DNA of 64,000 nucleotides. It comes from Draconibacterium mangrovi. GTDB lineage: Bacteria; Bacteroidota; Bacteroidia; Bacteroidales; Prolixibacteraceae. Location of the stretch: contig NZ_JAAAGB010000001.1 in assembly GCF_010586825.1 (NCBI RefSeq), positions 1,178,001 through 1,242,000 of the forward strand, in the 5' to 3' direction. Under the pieces are notes generated by a model. That model was not told the DNA's origin. It ran no database searches and worked only from the letters and a program-made list of their open reading frames with translations. The position numbers and the translations under genes were made by a program. Below are positions 17,404-32,684 of this stretch, one piece after another. Within the stretch, counting starts at the first letter, position 1. The number at the start of each line of letters is the position of its first letter.

Positions 17404-17913
17404 ATGAGAAAAAAATACATGAATCCATACCTGGCAGGGGTGCTACTTGGATTGGTACTTTTAACCGCGATGTTCTTTTCAGGGCGCGGACTGGGAGCGA
17501 GTGGCGGATTAAAATACGCAGTAGTGGCAGCTGTTGAAACAGTTGACCATGAACACGCCATGGAATCTTCGTACTACAGCAAATATTTCGAAGACGGTAA
17601 AAGTCCGCTAAAAAGCTGGCTGGCTCTTGAAGTCCTCGGCATGTTTTTAGGAGGATTTATCTCGGGAGCCATTTCGGGCCGTTTGAAATTTAAAATTGAA
17701 AAATCACCAAAAATTTCGAACGGGAAACGCTTATTGTTTGCCTTTCTTGGCGGTGTATTTTTTGTTTACGGCGCACAATTGGCTCGTGGATGTACCAGCG
17801 GCGCCGCGCTCTCAGGAATGGCAGTACTTTCAGTAGCCGGATTTATGACCATGCTCGGCATTTTTGGCTCTGCCTTTTTATTTGCATGGTTTTTCAGAAA
17901 ACTTTGGATCTAA
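17404..17913 (+). CDS. YeeE/YedE-family sulfur transporter, first half
   Basis: A 169-residue multi-pass membrane protein of the YeeE/YedE (Sulf_transp) family. The conserved signature containing the thiosulfate-relay cysteine is seen as ARGCTSGAALSGMAVLS (about residues 127-143). Full-length relatives such as TsuA import thiosulfate; in Bacteroidota and others the protein is often split into two half-size subunits. The second half is encoded 36 bp downstream. A loop with HEHAMESSYYSKYFEDGKS faces outside one membrane segment. It begins the operon with the two cysteine-less rhodanese-like proteins. Confidence 0.88.
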   Translation: MRKKYMNPYLAGVLLGLVLLTAMFFSGRGLGASGGLKYAVVAAVETVDHEHAMESSYYSKYFEDGKSPLKSWLALEVLGMFLGGFISGAISGRLKFKIEKSPKISNGKRLLFAFLGGVFFVYGAQLARGCTSGAALSGMAVLSVAGFMTMLGIFGSAFLFAWFFRKLWI

Positions 17914-17949
17914 AATTCAACCCTTCAGTAACTCAGTAAATCAAAAATT

Positions 17950-18552
17950 ATGGGACCGATTACAATACTTAACGACCTTCCTGAATGGATGAATCTCGGC
18001 ATCGGATTTTTTATCGGAATTGGCTTTGGCTTTGCGCTGGAGCAGGCCGGTTTTTCATCGAGCCGTAAACTGGCCGGAATGTTTTACGGATACGACACCA
18101 CTGTTTTGAAGGTGTTTTTTACGGCCGCAATAGTGGCGTTGGCAGGTTCGCAATTGCTCAGCTATTTTGGCTTGCTCGATTTAAACCTGGTTTATGTAAA
18201 TCCTTACTACGTAACCGCAACACTCGTTGGCGGAGTAATTATGGGAGCCGGATTTATAATGGGCGGTTTTTGCCCGGGCACCGGAATCAGTGCAATGTCG
18301 ATCGGGAAAATTGATGCCTTGTTTTTTCTGGTGGGCGGATTGAGTGGCGCATTTCTTTTTGCCGAAACTTACCCGATGATCCAGACACTGGCCGGAGCAA
18401 ATTACAAAGGTCCGGTACGTGTAGATGAATGGCTCGGTGTTTCTCCCGGAGTTTTTACGTTTCTGCTGATAGCAGCTGCCATTGCAATGTTCTGGCTGGC
18501 AGAACTAGCCGAGAAGAAATATGCACGAAACGATATCACAACAGAAATTTAA
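17950..18552 (+). CDS. YeeE/YedE-family sulfur transporter, second half
   Basis: A 200-residue membrane protein with about five helices. It has FALEQAGFSSSRKLAGMFYGYD and a second cysteine signature, GGFCPGTGISAMSIGKID, both characteristic of YeeE-type proteins. Together with the preceding gene it would form one transporter with two pseudo-symmetric cysteine sites for passing sulfane sulfur or thiosulfate across the inner membrane. The next gene starts 6 bp downstream, indicating a single operon. Confidence 0.88.
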   Translation: MGPITILNDLPEWMNLGIGFFIGIGFGFALEQAGFSSSRKLAGMFYGYDTTVLKVFFTAAIVALAGSQLLSYFGLLDLNLVYVNPYYVTATLVGGVIMGAGFIMGGFCPGTGISAMSIGKIDALFFLVGGLSGAFLFAETYPMIQTLAGANYKGPVRVDEWLGVSPGVFTFLLIAAAIAMFWLAELAEKKYARNDITTEI

Positions 18553-18558
18553 TCAGCA

Positions 18559-19170
18559 ATGAATGCACGAATAAAAATATCATTATTACTGGCAGGAGTT
18601 GGGTTGATTCTGGCTTTTCTACCATTTAATGCGGCGAAGTCTTTTCAACTAAAACCGACAGAATTGCTGGATGTTTCGTCAAATTCCGACATGTATTTTT
18701 CGGTTGACGAAGTGGCGCGCTTTGTAAATAACGAAGACACAACTATTCAACTGATCGATTTGCGAAGTGCCTCAGAGTTTATGGAAAGTAACATTCCGGG
18801 ATCAATCAATATTCCTTTCAACGATTTGCTAAATCCCAGCTGGGAAGGTTACTTGAATCAGGATAAAGTGAGAAATGTGTATTATGCAAACGGTGACGAA
18901 ACGGCAAACATGGCCTGGACGATTGTAAGTGGATTGGGCTATTCGAATTCGTTTGTAATGAAAGGCGGAATGAATGAATGGTATAAAACGGTTATGTTGA
19001 GCAAATTTGAAGGTGAACGGATTACACCACGCGAGAATGCGTTATTTGAAAACCGTTACAAAGCGCGCAGAACATTTACACAAATTAATAGTTTGCCCGA
19101 CAGTTTAAAGATGCAATACCTCGAAGCAAAACGTTTGGAAGAATCGCAACTGGATGGAGGTTGCGAATAA
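18559..19170 (+). CDS. Membrane-anchored rhodanese-like protein lacking the catalytic cysteine
   Basis: The 203-residue protein has an N-terminal hydrophobic segment (ISLLLAGVGLILAFLPF) and a rhodanese-like domain at about 46-140: LIDLRSASEFMESNIPGSINIPF, then VYYANGDETANMAW, then LGYSNSFVMKGGMNEWY. Active rhodaneses have cysteine at the position of Ala110 in YYANGDE; here it is alanine, so sulfur transferase activity is not expected. The C-terminal ERITPRENALFE...LDGGCE tail has one late cysteine. It sits in the YeeE operon and may bind or chaperone sulfur carriers rather than catalyse. Confidence 0.8.
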   Translation: MNARIKISLLLAGVGLILAFLPFNAAKSFQLKPTELLDVSSNSDMYFSVDEVARFVNNEDTTIQLIDLRSASEFMESNIPGSINIPFNDLLNPSWEGYLNQDKVRNVYYANGDETANMAWTIVSGLGYSNSFVMKGGMNEWYKTVMLSKFEGERITPRENALFENRYKARRTFTQINSLPDSLKMQYLEAKRLEESQLDGGCE

Positions 19171-19182
19171 AACCGTTACAAA

Positions 19183-19617
19183 ATGAAAAGAAATATACTT
19201 TGGATTTTAGGTGCTCTGCTTGTATTAGTTGTACTTGTTTTGGTACGAACTTTTAATACAAATCTTTTCAAAAGAAATGTGAGCGAGGCATTAACCACAG
19301 AAATGACAATTTCGGTGCAGGAGTTAAGCGAATTAAAAGAAAACTACTCAATAGTTGAGTTAGACGCCGAAAATCAACGCTTCCCAAATTCAGTGGTAAT
19401 ACCTTTTGATAAACTACTTGATAAAGATAATAAGGAAAAACTGGCTTCGATTGATGGTAAAACCCTGCTTTATTCCGGCGATATTGCCACAAGTTCAAAA
19501 GCCTGGGTAATTCTTAATCAATTGGAATTTGAGGCCGTTTATATTCTCTCGGATGAAGCAAATCCGGAGGAGTTAAAATATAAATTCCAGCCCGACACAA
19601 GGATCAGGCTGGAATAA
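19183..19617 (+). CDS. Membrane-anchored degenerate rhodanese-like domain protein
   Basis: A 144-residue protein with one N-terminal helix (ILWILGALLVLVVLVLV) and a small domain of rhodanese proportions: SIVELDAENQRFPNSVVIPF, then TLLYSGDIATSSKAW, then FEAVYILSDE. The segment LLYSGDIATSS corresponds to the active-site loop, but the cysteine is replaced by serine (Ser98). It is the last gene of the YeeE operon, 12 bp after the preceding one. It resembles its neighbour more than active rhodaneses, probably a diverged duplicate. Confidence 0.65.
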   Translation: MKRNILWILGALLVLVVLVLVRTFNTNLFKRNVSEALTTEMTISVQELSELKENYSIVELDAENQRFPNSVVIPFDKLLDKDNKEKLASIDGKTLLYSGDIATSSKAWVILNQLEFEAVYILSDEANPEELKYKFQPDTRIRLE

Positions 19618-19641: not shown

Positions 19642-20685
19642 TTAATTTTGAACGTACGGATAGTCGTGAATTTCGGCTTCGGTAAACGGCAGCCACGAAA
19701 GCGCACTTTCTTCTTCCTTCATTTTATCGTACATAAACGCATTGTTGCCATAGGTCAGCGTTTTGGCATCGTAGCCAAACAAACGCAGGTAAGCAGTTGC
19801 AAATCCGGAATTATGCCCGGTGTTACAATACAATACCACTTCCTTATCAACCGGAATAGTTTGCATTTCTGAAACAATACCAAGTGTACCACCCGGTTTG
19901 TAACGCACTGCACCCGGAATATGGCCCGAGTCGTATTTGTCTTTCCGATCGTAATTAATCGTGTAATAATTTCCGGAATTCTCAAACACATCCTTTGCAT
20001 TTACCAAGGCATCGCGATAACCGGCGGCAAAAAGCGCATCGATTCTTTGTTGTAAAATTTCATCGCCAGTGCTTTTGTTCGTATTCAGTTTTGGGAAATC
20101 TGAAACCGGTGCTTTATCGTGATCCTCCGTTTCCAGCTGATCCTGATAATCGGAAGAAACTTTAGCAAGCCACGAATCTTCAGCAAAATGTTTGTTCCAG
20201 CCACTCATTCCCCAGCGCATTGCATAAACATTGCCATAACCTGCCAGTCGCAACAACGAAACTGCATAACTGGAAATCTGTCCGGAATAGCATACCACCA
20301 CAATTTTATCGTATTCAAACGGCTTAATATCATTGGTAAGATATGCCGGTAAGTTGCTAAAATCAACCCGAACAGCACCTTTTATATGTCCGTCGTTATA
20401 TGCTTCTTCATTGCGAAGGTCAATGATGTAAATGTTTCCATCCAGTTCTTCATAAACTGACGATGGTTTTATAAGAGAAGGGAAATTACGGCTATTGGCA
20501 TAATCACCCATTTCATTCAGGGTTTTCAGCAGTAATTTTGCCTCCTCATTTACCTCAATTTTTGGTGTTGTTTCTGTTTCGCTGGTTTGTGTCTGTTCAG
20601 TTTTTTTCTGTCCTCCTGAACAGGAAATCAAAACGACAAAAGCAGCCAGTGAAAGAAATCTTAAAATCGGTTTTATCTGAATCAT
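19642..20685 (-). CDS. Lipoprotein with two rhodanese domains, both with cysteine
   Basis: The 347-residue protein has a lipoprotein signal (VLISC, Cys22) and two rhodanese domains. The first (about 73-170) has CYSGQISS with the catalytic cysteine at 132 after IIDLRNEEAYNDGHIKGAV. The second (about 215-330) has CNTGHNSG with Cys287 after GHIPGAVRY. Tandem rhodaneses transfer sulfane sulfur between thiosulfate, thiols or proteins. The position on a membrane anchor outside the cytoplasm suggests sulfur processing in the envelope. It shares an apparent operon with the upstream lipoprotein gene (13 bp gap), and it converges on the YeeE operon. Confidence 0.9.
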   Translation of the reverse strand: MIQIKPILRFLSLAAFVVLISCSGGQKKTEQTQTSETETTPKIEVNEEAKLLLKTLNEMGDYANSRNFPSLIKPSSVYEELDGNIYIIDLRNEEAYNDGHIKGAVRVDFSNLPAYLTNDIKPFEYDKIVVVCYSGQISSYAVSLLRLAGYGNVYAMRWGMSGWNKHFAEDSWLAKVSSDYQDQLETEDHDKAPVSDFPKLNTNKSTGDEILQQRIDALFAAGYRDALVNAKDVFENSGNYYTINYDRKDKYDSGHIPGAVRYKPGGTLGIVSEMQTIPVDKEVVLYCNTGHNSGFATAYLRLFGYDAKTLTYGNNAFMYDKMKEEESALSWLPFTEAEIHDYPYVQN

Positions 20686-22980: not shown

Positions 22981-24516
22981 ATGGCCATATTTCAACGTTT
23001 TGGTAACTACCTTAGAAAAAAACTGTTACTGATCATTTTTATCGGATTTATAATTGGTATCGCTGTTACCATTTCTTCTCTTAAAGTTATTGAAGCTACC
23101 TCAACAAATGAATCGTGCGAAGTGTGTCACGTACACCCTCATGTTTTTGATTCGTGGAAACTCTCTGTTCATCACGAGAACAGGACAGGTATGCATATCG
23201 GATGCGTGGAATGTCACCTCCCGCCAAAAGGACAAGGCTACCTAAAAGAAAAAGTAAAAGCCGGAGCCCGCGATGCGTATGGATATTTCTTTAAAGACAG
23301 TGCCGATTTTAACTGGGAAGCCAAGTCTTCGCTTGAGCAGGCGCAACATTTTGTTTTTGAAGAATCGTGCATTAGTTGCCACAATAATTTATTTCCGCTG
23401 ACTCTTACTTCCGAAGGTCAGCAGGCGCACCTTTATTATTCGCAAAACGAGGAGAAACTGCGCTGTATTAATTGCCACCTGAATGTTGGCCATTACGACC
23501 CAAATGCGTTACATGCCAAAAATGTTGAGTTTGGAAGTACCGGTGCCGAGGCAAAAGAAATTTATATAGCTGCAGCCGAAGTCACGGCTCATGAAGATTA
23601 TACCGAAACTATTCCGGGAACAACCATTGCCTTTAATATGAAAGCCATTCCGGGCGGAAGTTTCAAAATTGGAAGTCCTGAAGCGGAACAACTTCGCGAA
23701 ATCGATGAAGGCCCGCAAAAAACGGTAAATGTAAGTCCGTTCTTTATGGCTGAAATAGAAGTTAGCTGGGATGAATACCTGGCCTTTTACAGTGCCACTG
23801 CCGCCGAAGGCAGAACCACCGACACCGAAGGTGCACGCACCAAAGCAGATGTTGATGCAATTTCAGGCCCAACGCCACCTTACGGACAACCCGACCAAAA
23901 CTGGGGAATGGGAAGCCGGCCAGCCATTACAATGAGCTACCATTCGGCCGAAACCTACTGCAAATGGTTATCGCAGGTTACCGGAAAAACCTACCGCCTG
24001 CCAACTGAAGCCGAGTGGGAATATGCAGCCCGCGGAGGCACTGAAACTCCGTTCTTCTTTGAAGGTCAGCCAAAAGACTTTAAAGACAAAAACTTTATAG
24101 GAAAACTATTCGGAAAAGGAAGCGACATTATTAATAACTATGTCGTTTATGAGAAAAACAGTAGCCTGAAAACGGCCAAGCCCGATGTTGTTGAAGCCAA
24201 TCCGTTTGGGTTGAAAAATATGCTTGGTAATGCAGCAGAATATTGTGCCGACTGGTACGCCGAAGATGCCTATTCGAAATTAAGCGATGGTGCTACCGAC
24301 CCAAAAGGACCGGTTTCCGGCAACGAACACGTTATTCGTGGCGGAACATTTAAAAGCCCCGTTGGTGAAGTTAGAAGTGCTGCCCGCGATTACACCCGTA
24401 GCGAAGAATGGATGAAAACCGATCCGCAAATGCCGAAGAGTATCTGGTGGCTATCGGACTGTAATTACATTAGCTTCAGGGTAGTATGTGAATATGATGA
24501 GAATAACGGAAAATAA
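22981..24516 (+). CDS. NapC/NrfH-type tetraheme cytochrome fused to FGE-like (SUMF1) domain
   Basis: A 511-residue fusion. Residues about 15-35 form a membrane helix. Four CxxCH haem sites (46-50 CEVCH, 75-79 CVECH, 130-134 CISCH, 162-166 CINCH) follow in a NapC/NrfH-like module; such proteins are quinol dehydrogenases feeding periplasmic reductases. The C-terminal part (about 211-505) is a SUMF1/formylglycine-generating-enzyme fold: AIPGGSFKIGSP, YCKWLSQVTGKTYRLPTEAEWEYAARGG, GNAAEYCADWY, HVIRGGTFKSP. The two copper-binding cysteines expected after RGG in a true FGE are absent (RGGTFKSPVGEVRSAARDY), so sulfatase activation is unlikely. The domain more likely serves as a binding or structural unit. 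The next gene lies 43 bp downstream and is probably co-transcribed. Confidence 0.9.
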   Translation: MAIFQRFGNYLRKKLLLIIFIGFIIGIAVTISSLKVIEATSTNESCEVCHVHPHVFDSWKLSVHHENRTGMHIGCVECHLPPKGQGYLKEKVKAGARDAYGYFFKDSADFNWEAKSSLEQAQHFVFEESCISCHNNLFPLTLTSEGQQAHLYYSQNEEKLRCINCHLNVGHYDPNALHAKNVEFGSTGAEAKEIYIAAAEVTAHEDYTETIPGTTIAFNMKAIPGGSFKIGSPEAEQLREIDEGPQKTVNVSPFFMAEIEVSWDEYLAFYSATAAEGRTTDTEGARTKADVDAISGPTPPYGQPDQNWGMGSRPAITMSYHSAETYCKWLSQVTGKTYRLPTEAEWEYAARGGTETPFFFEGQPKDFKDKNFIGKLFGKGSDIINNYVVYEKNSSLKTAKPDVVEANPFGLKNMLGNAAEYCADWYAEDAYSKLSDGATDPKGPVSGNEHVIRGGTFKSPVGEVRSAARDYTRSEEWMKTDPQMPKSIWWLSDCNYISFRVVCEYDENNGK

Positions 24517-24559
24517 CTTATAACGATTGAATCCTAAATTCAACTAAAACATTAATATC

Positions 24560-25912
24560 ATGAGTAACAACAATTTTTCAAGAAGGAAATTTTTAGCCGG
24601 AGCCGCAACAGTAGGTGCAGCAGGGGCTATGGGAATCGGAACTTTGTCGTCGTGCTCTGGCGGAGGATCTTCTGAAAGTGGCGAATACGACTGGCTGCAA
24701 CGAGAGTACAAATATCCACCTTTGCTGGATGAAGTGCCTGCCGGAACAGTTTTAAAAGCCGGTATTGTTGGTTGCGGCGGACGAGGAACCGGTGCAGCTC
24801 TTAACTTTTTGGAAGCCGGTGGTTCAACCGTTCAGGTAACTGCACTGGCCGATGTTTTTCAGGACAGGCTGGATAGCTGTGCCGAGAAAATTAAAACAGA
24901 AACCGGACAGGAAGTACCTGCAGAAAACTGTTTTGTTGGTTTTGATGCTTATGAAAAAGTTCTTGATTCGGGTGTTGATATTGTAATTCTGGCAACTCCG
25001 CCAAAATTCCGTCCTCAGCAATTCGAGGCAGCTGTAAAAGCGCGTAAGCACGTATTTATGGAGAAACCAATTGCTGTTGATCCGGTTGGAATTCGTCAGG
25101 TTTTGGCCGCTGCAAAAATGGCCGATGCTGCCGGATTAAAAGTGGTTACAGGTACACAACGCCGCCACCAGCATAAATATTTAAATGTATATAAAGAACT
25201 CAGCAATAACGCCATTGGTAAACTCACCACAGCCGAAGTATATTGGAATGGTGGACAATTGTGGTACAGAAACAGCAAGCCCGAATGGAGCGAAATGGAA
25301 TGGATGATTCGCGACTGGGTAAACTGGTGCTGGCTTTCGGGCGACCATATTGTTGAACAACACGTGCACAATATCGACGTTGCCAACTGGTTTTTTGGCA
25401 AACACCCGATAAAAGCTTTAGGTTTTGGTTCACGTCAGCGTCGCCCAACCGGCGATCAGTATGATAATTTTGCCGTTCGATATGAACTGGATGACGGACG
25501 CCAGATTTTAAGCACATGCCGTCAGATTAATGGCTGTACAAATGCCGTAAACGAAGTAATGCACGGTACAAAAGGAAAAGCATTTACAGCTCAGGGTGGC
25601 ACAGCAAAAATTACCGATCTGGATGGTAATGATCTTTTCTCGTACGAAGATCATGCAACCAGCCCATACGTTCAGGAGCATAAAGACCTGATTACCTGTA
25701 TTCGCCAGGATATTCCGTTTAACGAGGCCGAAGAAACTGCCAATTCGGTAATGACGGCAATTATGGGCCGCGTTTCGGCATACACCGGAAAAGAAGTTAC
25801 CTGGGATGAAATGATGAATTCGGACATGAAACTGGGTCCTGACACTTTCATCATGGGTGATATTGGCTTTATGGAAACTGCAAGCGTACCTGTACCGGGA
25901 ACACTTGAATAG
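24560..25912 (+). CDS. Tat-exported lipoprotein, Gfo/Idh/MocA-family oxidoreductase
   Basis: The 450-residue oxidoreductase has a twin-arginine signal (NNNFSRRKFLAGAATVG) ending in a lipobox (LSSC), so it should be exported folded and lipidated. The Rossmann motif GIVGCGGRGTGAALNF binds NAD(P), and FMEKPIAVDPVGIRQ holds the conserved catalytic-region lysine. VVTGTQRRHQ follows. Cofactor is probably loaded before export. Exported relatives oxidise or dehydrogenate sugars, including 3-keto forms. It directly follows the tetraheme cytochrome, with which it may exchange electrons; that coupling is inferred only from position. Confidence 0.9.
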   Translation: MSNNNFSRRKFLAGAATVGAAGAMGIGTLSSCSGGGSSESGEYDWLQREYKYPPLLDEVPAGTVLKAGIVGCGGRGTGAALNFLEAGGSTVQVTALADVFQDRLDSCAEKIKTETGQEVPAENCFVGFDAYEKVLDSGVDIVILATPPKFRPQQFEAAVKARKHVFMEKPIAVDPVGIRQVLAAAKMADAAGLKVVTGTQRRHQHKYLNVYKELSNNAIGKLTTAEVYWNGGQLWYRNSKPEWSEMEWMIRDWVNWCWLSGDHIVEQHVHNIDVANWFFGKHPIKALGFGSRQRRPTGDQYDNFAVRYELDDGRQILSTCRQINGCTNAVNEVMHGTKGKAFTAQGGTAKITDLDGNDLFSYEDHATSPYVQEHKDLITCIRQDIPFNEAEETANSVMTAIMGRVSAYTGKEVTWDEMMNSDMKLGPDTFIMGDIGFMETASVPVPGTLE

Positions 25913-25958: not shown

Positions 25959-25987
25959 AACCTTCGGCAATAGCCGAAGGTTTTTTT
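25959..25987 (+). terminator. Rho-independent terminator after the Gfo/Idh/MocA gene
   Basis: AACCTTCGGC pairs perfectly with GCCGAAGGTT over a tetraloop AATA, followed by five more T (seven in the run). It ends the cytochrome-oxidoreductase operon. Confidence 0.9.
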
Positions 25988-26044
25988 GGCACTATACTTG
26001 TTTTAACACTAAAAAATGAAGTTTAATTATAAAAGTCTATAGCT

Positions 26045-26987: not shown

Positions 26988-27842
26988 CTAACCTATCTCA
27001 TTCGAATCGACAGATTGCCATTCCAAATAAGCTCCGTCGTATACTTTTACGTTTGGATACCCCAAACCTTTCAATGCCAAATAAATAACTCCGGCACGTA
27101 CACTGGTTTCGCAATAAACAATAACCGTTTTATCTTTGGTAATCCCCTTCGATTCAAACATCGAAGTAAGTGCTTCGTTCGATTTTAGCAAACTCTTTCC
27201 ATCAACCAGGGTTTCGTAGTTCACATTAACAGCGCTCGGAACGTGTCCCGGTCTTGCCAGTTCTGTTTCCGCAGTACCGGCATATTCTTCCGGTGTGCGT
27301 GCATCAACAATTACATACGATGGGTTGTTAACCGCCTTTTTTACCTCAGCCATAGTAGCCAGCTGGTTGGCGTCAACATTGGCGGTAAATGTAGTTTTGC
27401 TGCCTTTTGATGCTGTCCCGATTGGTCCGCGTGTTGCTTTCCACCCCGTAATGTTACCATCCAACATTTTTACATTTGGTGCTCCCAAATACTTTAACAT
27501 CCAGTACATCCGTCCGGCATATTTTGTTGACCCCTCATCGTACACAACAATGGTTTTATCAGCTGATATACCATTGTTTCCAAGCTCTGCAGCCATTTCT
27601 TCCGGCGATTTGATAATATTACGGATAGGCTCGTCGGTACACAGTGTGCCATGTGGTAGATCAATCGCACCACGAATAAACACTTTTTGATTTGCAGCAG
27701 CATTAAGAATGATGTAATTCGGGTTTTTCAGATTCTGTTTGAGCTCATTTGCCGAGATCAAATCCTGTGCTGACACAGCAGAAGCCATCAACAACACCAA
27801 TCCTAAGAAAAATAATCTATTAAGTTTCATATCCTTTGTCAT
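26988..27842 (-). CDS. Exported tandem-rhodanese sulfurtransferase (SseA/thiosulfate sulfurtransferase-like)
   Basis: The 284-residue protein has a signal peptide (MKLNRLFFLGLVLLMASAVSA, start possibly the inner ATG at 27830) and two rhodanese domains. The first (about 30-140) lacks the cysteine (VVYDEGSTKYAGR), as in classical two-domain sulfurtransferases. The second (about 155-280) has Cys244 in YCETSVRAG after DARTPEEYAG. It should transfer sulfane sulfur from thiosulfate or 3-mercaptopyruvate in the periplasm. It starts 6 bp after the porin gene and belongs to a three-gene operon. Confidence 0.9.
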   Translation of the reverse strand: MTKDMKLNRLFFLGLVLLMASAVSAQDLISANELKQNLKNPNYIILNAAANQKVFIRGAIDLPHGTLCTDEPIRNIIKSPEEMAAELGNNGISADKTIVVYDEGSTKYAGRMYWMLKYLGAPNVKMLDGNITGWKATRGPIGTASKGSKTTFTANVDANQLATMAEVKKAVNNPSYVIVDARTPEEYAGTAETELARPGHVPSAVNVNYETLVDGKSLLKSNEALTSMFESKGITKDKTVIVYCETSVRAGVIYLALKGLGYPNVKVYDGAYLEWQSVDSNEIG

Positions 27843-28957: not shown

Positions 28958-29947
28958 TTAGTTAGAAGATACTGTAGGAAGATCCTTAGGATTTGAATCG
29001 AATCCCCAGTGATTTGTTACGCCACCAGCTTCCCAGAATGAGTTGGTATGGCTTAAACCGTTCATACCGAAAAGAAGACTGTAAGCATCGAAACCAAGCA
29101 CATTCAAGTATGCGGTAATAACTGCTGAAGTTTGTCCGGTGTAGCAGTATGTAACTACTTTACCGTTTGGATCAAGTTTGCTGCAATCGTCGATTAATAA
29201 CGGGCTGATTCGTACAGCACCATTTACGTGTCCAAAACCGGTGTAATGGTCGGCCGAGAAATAGTTATTTACATAGTAATTAGCTGGGGTGGCTAAAACG
29301 TCGGCAGCTTTTACTGTTTTAAATCCTGCGGCAACAACTTCTTCAACTCTTTCGGCAAGAATATCAGCACCATTTGTTGATGTGCTTGTCCATGTTGGAG
29401 CGTCAAAACTTCCGGCTGTAGCTTCGTTGCTTGTCCAGTTATTTGCATCATCCAGAGATTTACAGTTTGGTGTCCATTTATCAAATGTTGTATTCCATCC
29501 ACTCATTCCCCATTTTAAGGCTTGTGTATCTTCGTAACCGTAAAGGCGAAGTAATGAAGTAGCGTAGCAAGCAGTTTGTCCGGTGTAACAAACCACCAAA
29601 ATAGGTTTATCGGCAGTGGCTGCAGCAGTTAGAATATCGCCAAAAGCAACGTTATTTGCACCTTCAATATGTGCAGCAGCAAAATCATCGCCCCCACGAA
29701 TATCCATAATCCATTTTGATGAAAGATCGCCATCAGCAGGAGCAGCCATCACAAACTTCTGTCCTGCAGCATTAGTTAATATATGGTTTACATCCATATC
29801 AACCGATTTCAGGTAAGTGGTCAACGTTTCGTAAGCTACCGGTTCCGAACCTGAACAATCGCATTCTTCTTCTTCATATTTACATCCGGTAAACGTGACT
29901 GAAGCAAAAATTGCAAGTAGTAATGTGTAAAAAAAGTACTTTTTCAT
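28958..29947 (-). CDS. Lipoprotein with two rhodanese domains, both with CYTGQT loop
   Basis: The 329-residue protein has a lipoprotein signal (TFTGC, Cys22), an acidic-cysteine linker (KYEEEECDC) and two rhodanese domains. Both retain a catalytic cysteine: Cys120 in VVCYTGQTACYA and Cys268 in YCYTGQTSAV. The first ends in LKWGMSGWN and the second in LLFGMNGLSH. The CYTGQT loop and the LRLYGY / LNVLGF helices are close to those in the protein at 19642-20685, so these are paralogues. It heads the sulfurtransferase-porin operon. Confidence 0.9.
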   Translation of the reverse strand: MKKYFFYTLLLAIFASVTFTGCKYEEEECDCSGSEPVAYETLTTYLKSVDMDVNHILTNAAGQKFVMAAPADGDLSSKWIMDIRGGDDFAAAHIEGANNVAFGDILTAAATADKPILVVCYTGQTACYATSLLRLYGYEDTQALKWGMSGWNTTFDKWTPNCKSLDDANNWTSNEATAGSFDAPTWTSTSTNGADILAERVEEVVAAGFKTVKAADVLATPANYYVNNYFSADHYTGFGHVNGAVRISPLLIDDCSKLDPNGKVVTYCYTGQTSAVITAYLNVLGFDAYSLLFGMNGLSHTNSFWEAGGVTNHWGFDSNPKDLPTVSSN

Positions 29948-30434: not shown

Positions 30435-30442
30435 TAACTTTG
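30435..30442 (+). promoter_or_regulatory. Bacteroidota -7 element of the Crp/Fnr gene (TAACTTTG)
   Basis: TAACTTTG matches TAnnTTTG exactly and ends six bases before the ATG at 30449, so the message would be leaderless or nearly so. Confidence 0.6.
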
Positions 30443-30448
30443 ATAATT

Positions 30449-31138
30449 ATGCCATTAAACAAACTGGATAAATGTGTTGGATGTAGGTGCATGTCAGCAC
30501 CTTTTAAGAAACTTACGAACGAAGAGTTGATTCAGATTAACCGAAACCGGGTTGAAGTAAATTTCAAAAAAGGAGAGATTATCGCAAAGCAGGGTGCCTT
30601 AGCAGCACACATCATTTACATTAAAAGTGGCCTGGTGAAAGTTTACCGCGAACATGCCAACGATGAATTGATATTATCCGTCGAAAACCAGGGCAAAATA
30701 TTAGGCTTGCAGGCGCTCTATTCAAAAAATATTTATCCCTACTCTGTCAAAGCATATACCGATACCAGCGTTTGCCTTCACGATATAAAAACAATTGATT
30801 CATTTATTCACAATAATGCTGCGTTCAGCGCAAGCATTTTGCGTCATTTAAACGATGAGTCGTTGTTCTCGTACAACCGAATGGCTTGCCTAACCCTGAA
30901 ACAATTACACGGCCGTTTTGCCGACTTACTTTTGTGTTTCAGCCTTCGTTTGTTCAAGCGAAAAAAGTTCAGTGTTCCGATCAGTAAAAAAGACATGGCT
31001 GCTATTACCAACATGTCGCAGGAAAGTCTTTCGCGTGTGATTAAGGAATTTGTTTCTGAAAATATTATCGAATTAAAAGGCAAAGAAATTACGATTCTTG
31101 ATTTCGACCGGGTGCGCCATCTCAGCCAGGTAGGTTAA
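30449..31138 (+). CDS. Crp/Fnr-family transcriptional regulator
   Basis: The 229-residue protein has a cyclic-nucleotide-binding-like sensor domain (about 25-120; VNFKKGEIIAKQGALAAHIIYIKSGLVKVY) and a C-terminal winged helix (about 150-225; ISKKDMAAITNMSQESLSRVIKEF). The N-terminal MPLNKLDKCVGCRCMSAPF has three cysteines near the start, as in regulators that bind iron-sulfur or haem, so redox or oxygen sensing is possible. The start at 30449 is set by the TAACTTTG promoter just upstream, because a longer frame begins with a TTG inside that promoter. A perfect FNR box lies upstream. It converges with a second family member. Confidence 0.87.
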   Translation: MPLNKLDKCVGCRCMSAPFKKLTNEELIQINRNRVEVNFKKGEIIAKQGALAAHIIYIKSGLVKVYREHANDELILSVENQGKILGLQALYSKNIYPYSVKAYTDTSVCLHDIKTIDSFIHNNAAFSASILRHLNDESLFSYNRMACLTLKQLHGRFADLLLCFSLRLFKRKKFSVPISKKDMAAITNMSQESLSRVIKEFVSENIIELKGKEITILDFDRVRHLSQVG

Positions 31139-31827
31139 CCTTTTTGTTTAATTTCCTCCAGTTTTTTTTCGTTTAAAATGGTAAGCACATTCTGTTCAAG
31201 TGCTATAATTCCCATTTCCTGGAATTCCTTTAATATCCGTGAAACGCTTTCGCGCGAAGTGCCAATTAATGCAGCAATTTCAGTTTGGGTAAGGTTTAAG
31301 GCAAAAGTGTTCTCGCCATAAACTTCGTTGGCGAAATAACTTATGGTATTAGCCAATCTGCCGGGTAACTGTTGCTGCACGTTTTTCACCAATCGGTCGA
31401 AATAATTCATTTCGTCGCTAAAAACTGTTGATAATACCTTCAGGGCAAACTCGCCGTTTTGTTGTAACAGACTGGCAAAACAATGTCTGTCGATAAAACA
31501 CACTTCCGAGTTCGTTAATGTAATGGCCGAGAAATAATTGGTTTTTATGTTTTCATCCAGGTTCTGAATCCCAAGGTACGATCCCTGTTTTGAAACGCTC
31601 AGAATAAAATCTTTACCGCCGGCACCTTTTTTTACCAGTTTCACAAAACCTTTCCGAATATAAATGATATGCTGAACCGGCCCACCCTCTTTAAAAATAA
31701 GTTCGCCTTTTTTGTACGCTGTTTTTGCACATCCTCCTTCAAGAACACATAACTCATTGTTATCCAGAACAGAAACAGCTCCCGATTTTAGACTGCAATC
31801 AACACAGGTATTGGCAATTAAGTTCAT
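31135..31827 (-). CDS. Crp/Fnr-family transcriptional regulator, second copy
   Basis: The 230-residue paralogue has a sensor domain (AYKKGELIFKEGGPVQHIIYIRKGFVKLV) and a winged helix (LTQTEIAALIGTSRESVSRILKEF). It also has cysteines near the N-terminus (NTCVDCS), different in spacing from its neighbour. A longer frame starting at a TTG inside the TAAGTTTG promoter is rejected; the ATG at 31827 lies three bases after that element, giving a leaderless message. Its stop codon overlaps the stop of the forward gene in the palindrome TTAA. It may regulate the same sulfur or anaerobic genes. Confidence 0.87.
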   Translation of the reverse strand: MNLIANTCVDCSLKSGAVSVLDNNELCVLEGGCAKTAYKKGELIFKEGGPVQHIIYIRKGFVKLVKKGAGGKDFILSVSKQGSYLGIQNLDENIKTNYFSAITLTNSEVCFIDRHCFASLLQQNGEFALKVLSTVFSDEMNYFDRLVKNVQQQLPGRLANTISYFANEVYGENTFALNLTQTEIAALIGTSRESVSRILKEFQEMGIIALEQNVLTILNEKKLEEIKQKG

Positions 31828-31830
31828 CTG

Positions 31831-31838
31831 CAAACTTA
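31831..31838 (-). promoter_or_regulatory. Bacteroidota -7 element of the reverse Crp/Fnr gene (TAAGTTTG)
   Basis: Exact TAnnTTTG match three bases before the start codon. The predicted transcription start coincides with the ATG. Confidence 0.65.
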
Positions 31839-32204: not shown

Positions 32205-32684
32205 TTAAAACCTTTCCAGTTTCGGATAAGCCTCGTGCCATGCTTTCCATCCTCCGTTAAGCGAATACACATGATCGTAACCCAGCATATTTAGCGACTT
32301 TGCAGCTAGTGCCGATCGGCTGCCACTGCGGCAATACAAAATTATAGTATCTGTTTTTTTAGGTAGCGCGTGATGAAAACCTTCCCAAACAGTTTCCTTT
32401 TCAATGTGCGATTCTAACACACCGCGTTGCACGAGGTAAGCTCCCGGAATATGTCCGGCCCGGTATTCATCTTCTGTACGCACGTCGATTAAAATATAGC
32501 CGGGCTTTCGGCTTTTCAGTCCTTCCACATATTGGTGATGAAATCCTTCCGCATCAAGCTCATCTATTTCCTGTTTTACGGCAGCAACCAATTCTTTATA
32601 TCCGCTGTAAACCTTATTTTCCTGAGCAGATAGCACAGAAAACATCCCCATCATCAAAACGATGATAACCCCAAATTTCTTCAT
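32205..32684 (-). CDS. Secreted single-domain rhodanese
   Basis: A 159-residue protein with a signal peptide (MKKFGVIIVLMMGMFSVLSAQ) and one rhodanese domain (about 45-155): ILIDVRTEDEYRAGHIPGAYLV, LYCRSGSRSALAAKSLNMLGYDHV and LNGGWKAWH. The CRSGSRS loop has the catalytic Cys118, and the R/G-rich loop is like PspE/GlpE-type sulfurtransferases. It is the sixth rhodanese-type protein in the 17.4-32.7 kb region. Confidence 0.9.
   Translation of the reverse strand: MKKFGVIIVLMMGMFSVLSAQENKVYSGYKELVAAVKQEIDELDAEGFHHQYVEGLKSRKPGYILIDVRTEDEYRAGHIPGAYLVQRGVLESHIEKETVWEGFHHALPKKTDTIILYCRSGSRSALAAKSLNMLGYDHVYSLNGGWKAWHEAYPKLERF

Follow-up and report, generated by a model that had tools for sequence, protein, structure and literature searches.

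An FGE-like domain paired with an exported Gfo/Idh/MocA oxidoreductase and fused to a NapC-type tetraheme cytochrome: a possible membrane-anchored redox unit in Bacteroidales

The stretch of 64,000 nucleotides from Draconibacterium mangrovi analyzed here (contig NZ_JAAAGB010000001.1, positions 1,178,001 to 1,242,000; hereafter the window) contains a gene in which a NapC/NirT-type tetraheme cytochrome is fused to a domain resembling the formylglycine-generating enzyme (FGE, or SUMF1), followed by a gene for an exported oxidoreductase of the Gfo/Idh/MocA family (hereafter Gfo). On our best reading, what is new here is that this FGE-like domain is a recurrent partner of exported Gfo enzymes, to which a NapC module has been added in Bacteroidales. 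The two genes would thus encode a membrane-anchored periplasmic redox unit. Judging from its signal and lipobox, the Gfo enzyme would be exported in the folded state by the twin-arginine translocation (Tat) pathway, presumably with NAD(P) bound as in other members of its family, and would oxidize a hydroxyl group of a sugar or glycoside. The FGE-like domain, a dedicated partner distinct from FGE, would dock the enzyme at the membrane, as the genomic association of the two suggests, and in Bacteroidales, where this domain is joined to a NapC/NrfH-type tetraheme module, electrons could leave the enzyme for menaquinone. To this scheme as a whole, with docking of the exported Gfo enzyme by the FGE-like domain and transfer of its electrons through the hemes to menaquinone, we give about an even chance of being correct.

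The fusion is encoded by an open reading frame (ORF) free of internal stops, and its product matches two Pfam profiles, namely, Cytochrom_NNT (PF03264; residues 13-175, 94.2 bits versus a cut-off of 24.1) and FGE-sulfatase (PF03781; residues 221-473, 128.7 bits versus a cut-off of 23.3). The original prediction, made from the sequence alone, had described four CxxCH sites, a membrane helix and an FGE domain devoid of the copper cysteines in one frame, and this description was accurate. It had also placed a protein with a Tat signal, a lipobox and a Gfo/Idh/MocA domain 43 bp further on; this is the distance between the two ORFs, and the nature of the neighbor was borne out by Pfam and TIGR profiles and by alignment.

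The distribution of the fusion was assessed by a protein search with the full-length sequence in 61 genomes, comprising the D. mangrovi genome, 36 others of the genus and 24 from other families of the order. Rows matching at least 354 query residues were counted as fusion places, leaving out three partial rows (G016:C87:71112-71573, G029:C1:755330-755515, and G035:C183:9-212) and rows matching the FGE part only. Among the matches listed, there were 72 such places in 40 of the 61 genomes, that is, in 35 of the 37 members of the genus (D. mangrovi included) and in 5 of the 24 genomes outside it. The fusion is a single unbroken frame in 70 of these places, and it is split between the domains in one (G016:C87) and near the 3' end in another (G029:C1). 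A Gfo gene is located directly downstream on the same strand in 71 of the 72 places, with 27 to 228 bp between the matches. The ratio of nonsynonymous to synonymous substitution rates (dN/dS), determined against four relatives, was 0.008 to 0.058 for the cytochrome half and 0.050 to 0.064 for the FGE half, indicating strong purifying selection on each of them. For the linker it was 0.19 to 0.72 (three estimable values from four comparisons). Given its presence in 40 genomes, the Gfo gene beside 71 of 72 copies and the selection acting on both halves, the fusion is no artefact. Two outcomes that the original prediction had named as fatal to it, a sequencing error that separates two genes and a lack of co-occurrence in relatives, did not occur. 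A chance or functionally idle fusion beside an unrelated sugar enzyme, for which we found no support, is contradicted by the conserved adjacency, the co-occurrence and the selection, and we put its probability close to nil.

Two or more copies of the fusion were present in 31 of the 40 fusion-bearing genomes. The second pair of D. mangrovi (G000:C11:1310103-1312942) encodes a fusion about 50% and a Gfo enzyme 52% identical to those of the window, as though its two genes had been duplicated together. In L025 (5227-8080 and 11210-13720), this second pair precedes genes for a family-2 glycosyltransferase and a PMT/TPR membrane protein, and a Laminin_G_3 protein flanks it; these neighbor clusters reappear in L031, L032, and L037. 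In the last of these stretches (L037:7763-10589, genome G016), frame changes or a stop interrupt both genes of the second pair, through either real decay or an assembly error.

A scan of a collection of 84,980 species genomes confirmed at least 544 stretches, and the best 80 of these 544 were kept. The whole fusion was found in 15 of them (L045-L059), in records assigned to Bacteroidales, Bacteroidia, Bacteroidetes, Sunxiuqinia, Maribellus, Parabacteroides, Tannerella and Dysgonamonadaceae, and in all 15 a Gfo gene lies no more than 800 bp away on the same strand, downstream in 14 cases and upstream in one. When 296 genomes of the phylum were sampled, strong matches to the cytochrome half (460 and 154 bits) were obtained only in the D. 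mangrovi genome, the next best match scoring 37 bits. The fusion is therefore confined, as far as sampled, to Bacteroidales and near kin. The closest relatives with names, Sunxiuqinia and Maribellus, suggest a position of the window within or close to Prolixibacteraceae.

In the other 65 of the best 80 loci, the match is chiefly to the FGE part. A same-strand Gfo gene at most 800 bp away was present in 37 of the 51 closer loci (L060-L110; records of Acidobacteria, Verrucomicrobia, Planctomycetes, Bacteroidota, Rhodothermota, Balneolota and Armatimonadetes) and, by the same distance criterion, in none of the 14 more distant ones (L111-L124). Among the 51, a stretch that ends right after the FGE gene (L079) and one with a weak Gfo match of 26.8 bits (L096) were counted as misses, and a locus with an intervening gene (L062) is outside the 37. 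The phylum sample, which was not selected by neighbors, provided 71 FGE rows after two D. mangrovi rows had been left out, with at most seven FGE and five Gfo candidates scored per genome. Thirty FGE-like genes from 30 genomes reached the C-terminal motif (frames of 317 to 440 amino acids, counted as NapC-free without a check for heme sites), and 26 of them are followed by a Gfo gene within 1000 bp. This type of Gfo enzyme (E <= 1e-50) was found in all 30 genomes with such an FGE gene versus 15 of the 265 other genomes. None of the 41 FGE-like matches that stop short of the motif is followed by Gfo, a weak control in that all 41 belong to one family (f42) in 20 genomes, none of which has this Gfo type. 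A better control is provided by the D. mangrovi genome, where, in flanks of about 1.5 kb, Gfo accompanies both fusions and none of the seven other FGE-like genes. Furthermore, a mirror-tree comparison of the FGE-like domain with Gfo gave a correlation, which includes shared species history, of r = 0.81 for 38 pairs, a value reached in none of 2000 permutations, and of 0.78 within the 22 fusion pairs. In the Gfo tree, fusion-linked and FGE-only-linked enzymes separate, and four unpaired enzymes are placed inside the fusion-linked part. By association, then, the original interpretation is supported in part, in that the FGE-like part accompanies the oxidoreductase among the fusions and among the NapC-free genes of both samples. 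Since the pairing occurs elsewhere without the NapC part, the cytochrome seems to be an addition to it.

Long ORFs in L073, L094, and L105 that resembled natural single-chain FGE-Gfo fusions were rejected as artefacts of ORF calling, with the FGE match in another frame. In two Maribacter stretches (L061:7863-14797 and L066:2-7889), an FGE-like gene without Gfo is followed by genes for proteins of about 780 amino acids (two CxxCH sites), 486 amino acids (RRHFF N terminus) and 476 amino acids (a single CxxCH site).

The cytochrome half has the four CxxCH sites and the N-terminal membrane helix of the NapC/NirT family, in agreement with its profile score. When it was aligned with the NrfH chain of PDB 2j7a (E = 0.0007), K91 and D98, both invariant in the 14 aligned fusions, coincided with Lys82 and Asp89, which passages of PMC4683180 list among the conserved residues of a quinone-pool-interacting NrfH. 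With these residues kept, a quinone link of the cytochrome half is predicted. The D. mangrovi genome encodes a separate NrfH-like protein (L137) with the sequence CTNCHIM, a CxxCHxM site, versus CxxCHxH in the fusion. The histidine concerned, H52, is invariant in the same 14 fusions and is found at the position of NrfH Met49, which we take to be the ligand of heme 1. The identification as NrfH proper was rejected on account of this site and of an NrfH equivalog score of 72.7 bits versus a cut-off of 134.2; as the Lys/Asp pair is kept but H52 replaces Met49, this half is a member of the NapC/NirT family and not NrfH. The conserved pair would also fit a reductive direction, from menaquinol through the tetraheme module to a Gfo enzyme acting on a keto-sugar, or on some other acceptor in the periplasm, as a reductase, and NapC/NrfH relatives mostly oxidize quinol. 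However, menaquinol is a weak reductant for an NAD-dependent ketone reduction, and H52 departs from the quinol-oxidizing NrfH; we consider this direction improbable.

The folds nearest to the FGE-like domain are PvdO, the top match, and FGE. Neither the fusion nor its paralog has the copper-cysteine pair; at the aligned place, the FGE-like protein L125 of the same genome has RGGSFLCNDSYC. The pattern was found in none of the 51 FGE-only relatives. A true FGE, active in sulfatase activation, was rejected for lack of this cysteine pair. The domain carries a C-terminal stretch, TDPQ-P-S-WW, that is missing from the other FGE-like proteins of the genome that were aligned, and D481, P482, P485, S487 and W489 are invariant in 53 rows (29 of them fusions, the other 24 drawn from the 51 FGE-only proteins). 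Such strongly conserved residues of its own, and PvdO as top match in both fold and NCBIfam profile (100 bits), would be in keeping with a domain that is itself an enzyme, comparable to PvdO, an FGE-fold oxidase, that acts on the substrate of Gfo and is served by the hemes. We regard this as unlikely, as the PvdO score is far below the equivalog cut-off of 500 bits and the copper cysteines are missing.

The Gfo neighbor matches GFO_IDH_MocA (PF01408) with 55 bits versus a cut-off of 24. Its twin-arginine signal scores 19.6 bits with TIGR01409 (cut-off 16.7) and 17.2 bits with Pfam TAT_signal, which is under the cut-off of 22.7. R8 and R9 are invariant in 43 of 43 aligned Gfo proteins (22 fusion-linked, 17 FGE-only-linked and 4 unlinked), with or without an FGE neighbor; the lipobox residue C32 is invariant in all 15 rows of a smaller alignment, not throughout the 43. 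G71, G73, G76, K169 (in an EKP sequence) and H270 are also invariant in these 15 rows, and position 266, the place of the catalytic Asp, is occupied by E or D. The structural model (predicted local distance difference test [pLDDT] of 87.9) matches inositol dehydrogenases, the glucose-fructose oxidoreductase (GFOR) of Zymomonas and the aldose-aldose oxidoreductase (AAOR) of Caulobacter. Because K169, H270 and the acidic residue are kept, the protein should be an active dehydrogenase.

The neighborhood offers hints of a sugar substrate. A xylose-isomerase-like TIM-barrel gene is located at most 2.5 kb from the FGE start in 9 of the 15 fusion loci (in one on the opposite strand), and such a gene adjoins the pair in L026, L027, L029, and L030 (in L027 on the sole basis of cluster membership). 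Near relatives lacking the fusion adjoin a SusD-like gene, a PIG-L-type deacetylase, a TIM-barrel gene (L038) or a 3-keto-disaccharide hydrolase (L039). The D. mangrovi genome contains 20 matches to PF06439, none inside the two-gene unit, and no TIM-barrel or 3-keto hydrolase gene is adjacent to the pair of the window itself. Parts of PMC10628242 and PMC8563793 describe glycoside operons in which TIM-barrel enzymes cleave 3-keto-glycosides, with elimination after oxidation, and BT2158 is a periplasmic glycoside 3-dehydrogenase according to passages of PMC11300592. Orthology with BT_2158/BT_2159 was rejected (NCBIfam scores of 22.2 versus 750 and 18.4 versus 650 bits).

In the Gfo/Idh/MocA glycoside oxidoreductase DgpA, as passages of PMC11239390 have it, NAD(H) remains bound and the NADH is reoxidized by a 3-oxo-sugar. 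By analogy, the chemistry of the present Gfo enzyme could be redox neutral on a single bound NAD (oxidation, elimination or hydrolysis, and then reduction), the FGE-like domain docking the enzyme and the cytochrome merely resetting molecules trapped in the wrong redox state. The wide occurrence of NapC-free FGE-Gfo pairs, which implies that catalysis is probably possible without the NapC part, also speaks for such a rescue or redox-poising role. Nevertheless, a membrane-bound tetraheme protein that is strongly selected and duplicated together with the enzyme would be a costly solution for rescue, and we find this explanation doubtful.

A second type of cytochrome was found on the FGE-like domain. 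In four Verrucomicrobia records (L067, L072, L074, and L097), PSCyt1 (planctomycete cytochrome c) domains are fused to an FGE-like relative, and the gene in L074 has a Gfo gene next door. Of the indirect signs of an involvement of electrons, this apparently independent joining is still the best. We propose, more tentatively than for the unit itself and with rather more doubt than confidence, that a subfamily of the FGE fold serves as a dedicated partner of exported Gfo/Idh/MocA enzymes across Bacteroidota, Planctomycetota, Verrucomicrobiota and Acidobacteriota, and that at least two fusion events joined it to unrelated cytochromes c, of the NapC and the PSCyt1 type, giving respiratory, quinone-linked dehydrogenases from enzymes that are otherwise known for recycling bound NAD(P).

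Several observations, in addition to the weak control and the shared species history mentioned above, weigh against the docking and electron-transfer scheme. The weakest step is the transfer from the hydride of NADH to one-electron hemes, as neither a flavin nor another two-to-one-electron converter can be seen between them. NapC/NrfH proteins usually run in the opposite direction, from quinol to the periplasm. No regularly encoded cytochrome was found, by CxxCH counts, beside the NapC-free FGE-Gfo pairs; the FGE-Gfo association by itself thus implies no electron transfer, and since these pairs are widespread without NapC part or regular cytochrome, we regard docking as better supported than electron transfer. 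Structure prediction of the fusion, proposed as a check at the outset, gave an FGE-like fold (mean pLDDT of 78.5, with much of the FGE core above 90) but was too uncertain to position the hemes relative to the FGE-like part, with no reliable contact between cytochrome and FGE-like domain (predicted template modeling score of 0.63). The PSCyt1-FGE genes of L067, L072, and L097 have no Gfo gene in the examined stretch, and all four such genes are without the exact pattern of the C-terminal motif, which 39 of the 51 FGE-only relatives have; because of this, they may be a side branch. Among the 96 Gfo rows in the pairing count, made up of strong Gfo matches and fragments, 25 are unpaired, some of them being fragments. 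Lastly, one whole fusion, the third copy in G031 (G031:6313950, L034), is without Gfo. This orphan copy (L034:7951-9513) adjoins a thioredoxin-like gene and an esterase gene.

Searches of open-access papers, subscription papers being outside their scope, brought up no description of the fusion or of an FGE-Gfo partnership and no paper that names both Gfo/Idh/MocA and formylglycine-generating enzyme, in line with the original statement that no standard name was known. Bacteroidota and the Planctomycetes-Verrucomicrobia-Chlamydiae phyla have many exported Gfo/Idh/MocA enzymes, which now appear in glycan breakdown by 3-oxidation. The question addressed is how such enzymes are reoxidized outside the cytoplasm, and it is reducible here to two genes. 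A conserved docking partner that carries a quinone-linked cytochrome in one lineage and a different cytochrome in another would link 3-oxidation to respiration; if this is true, a menaquinone outlet would remove the need for a DgpA-type recycling of NADH by 3-oxo-sugars, and a function would be gained for many proteins labeled only with a sulfatase-modifying-factor domain.

The sulfur alternative of the original prediction received little support. On this reading, suggested by neighboring YeeE and rhodanese genes, the pair would be a sulfur-linked redox unit. In the window, L035, and L041, the pair has halves of a YeeE-type transporter and rhodaneses on its flanks, and the stretches L033, L040, and L042 retain one gene of the rhodanese clusters. 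However, YeeE-type genes are missing beside the pair in four relatives (L033, L036, L040, and L042), neither the YeeE nor the rhodanese clusters are seen in L036, L025 (the second pair of D. mangrovi), L026, L027, L029, and L030, the partner enzyme belongs to a sugar-type family, and in several other families it is a TIM-barrel gene that adjoins the pair. Sulfur metabolism was rejected as the role; the rhodanese-cluster gene that remains in L033, L040, and L042 leaves a weak link, and we consider this role very improbable.

The window itself contains a dense group of rhodanese-like or rhodanese-cluster genes (17404-19617, 19642-20685, 26988-27842, 28958-29947, and 32205-32684; Pfam basis only for 17404-19170 and 19642-20685) around a YeeE/YedE-type sulfur transporter that is split into two ORFs of 169 and 200 amino acids. 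Two convergent ORFs of 232 amino acids (30440-31138 on the plus strand and 31135-31833 on the minus strand) overlap by 4 bp and belong to one sequence cluster; by eye they resemble regulators of the Crp/Fnr type. The coordinates of the two-gene unit are given in Table 1.

Table 1. Features of the two-gene unit, with positions numbered from the first letter of the window
Feature	Positions	Strand	Basis
Fusion gene, NapC/NirT-type tetraheme cytochrome + FGE/SUMF1-like domain, 511 amino acids	22981..24516	+	ORF, Pfam, genome search
N-terminal membrane helix, about residues 14-36	23020..23088	+	Sequence; AlphaFold2 helix at residues 2-40
Heme site 1, CEVCH (residues 46-50), then V-H52	23116..23130	+	Alignment
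Heme site 2, CVECH (residues 75-79)	23203..23217	+	Sequence, alignment
K91...D98, aligned with NrfH Lys82/Asp89	23251..23274	+	Alignment, 14/14 fusions
Heme site 3, CISCH (residues 130-134)	23368..23382	+	Sequence, alignment
Heme site 4, CINCH (residues 162-166)	23464..23478	+	Sequence, alignment
Linker, residues 179-205, loosely constrained	23515..23595	+	dN/dS; low pLDDT at residues 167-189
FGE-like domain, residues 206-511, with C-terminal motif TDPQ-P-S-WW	23596..24513	+	Pfam, fold, alignment
Tat-exported lipoprotein, predicted Gfo/Idh/MocA oxidoreductase, 450 amino acids	24560..25912	+	Pfam, alignment, fold
Twin-arginine signal (R8, R9) and lipobox L-S-S-C32	24560..24655	+	Alignment
Terminator-like hairpin and T run 3' of the second gene	25960..25988	+	By eye

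Four kinds of known systems can be compared with this unit. With the quinol dehydrogenases NrfH, NapC and TorC, the fusion has in common the four CxxCH sites, the single N-terminal membrane helix and the equivalents of Lys82 and Asp89; it differs from them in its additional C-terminal FGE-like domain, in the His at the Met49 position, in a score below the NrfH equivalog cut-off and in having as neighbor a Gfo/Idh/MocA enzyme instead of a multiheme or molybdenum reductase. The Tat-exported or periplasmic sugar oxidoreductases GFOR, AAOR and BT2158 have the Rossmann fold and the active-site Lys and His in common with the Gfo neighbor, and we know of no cytochrome or FGE-like partner of these enzymes. 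The LacABC-type lactose 3-dehydrogenase of Caulobacter consists of flavoprotein and cytochrome components, which are unrelated to the parts of the window pair. Passages of PMC9007349 describe it as a three-component, membrane-bound enzyme that oxidizes glycosides at C3 in the periplasm. Finally, FGE/SUMF1, PvdO and PorK/GldK (PF03781) have the same fold as the FGE-like domain, which is distinguished from them by the lack of copper cysteines, by the extra TDPQ-P-S-WW stretch and by being either fused to a cytochrome or paired with Gfo.

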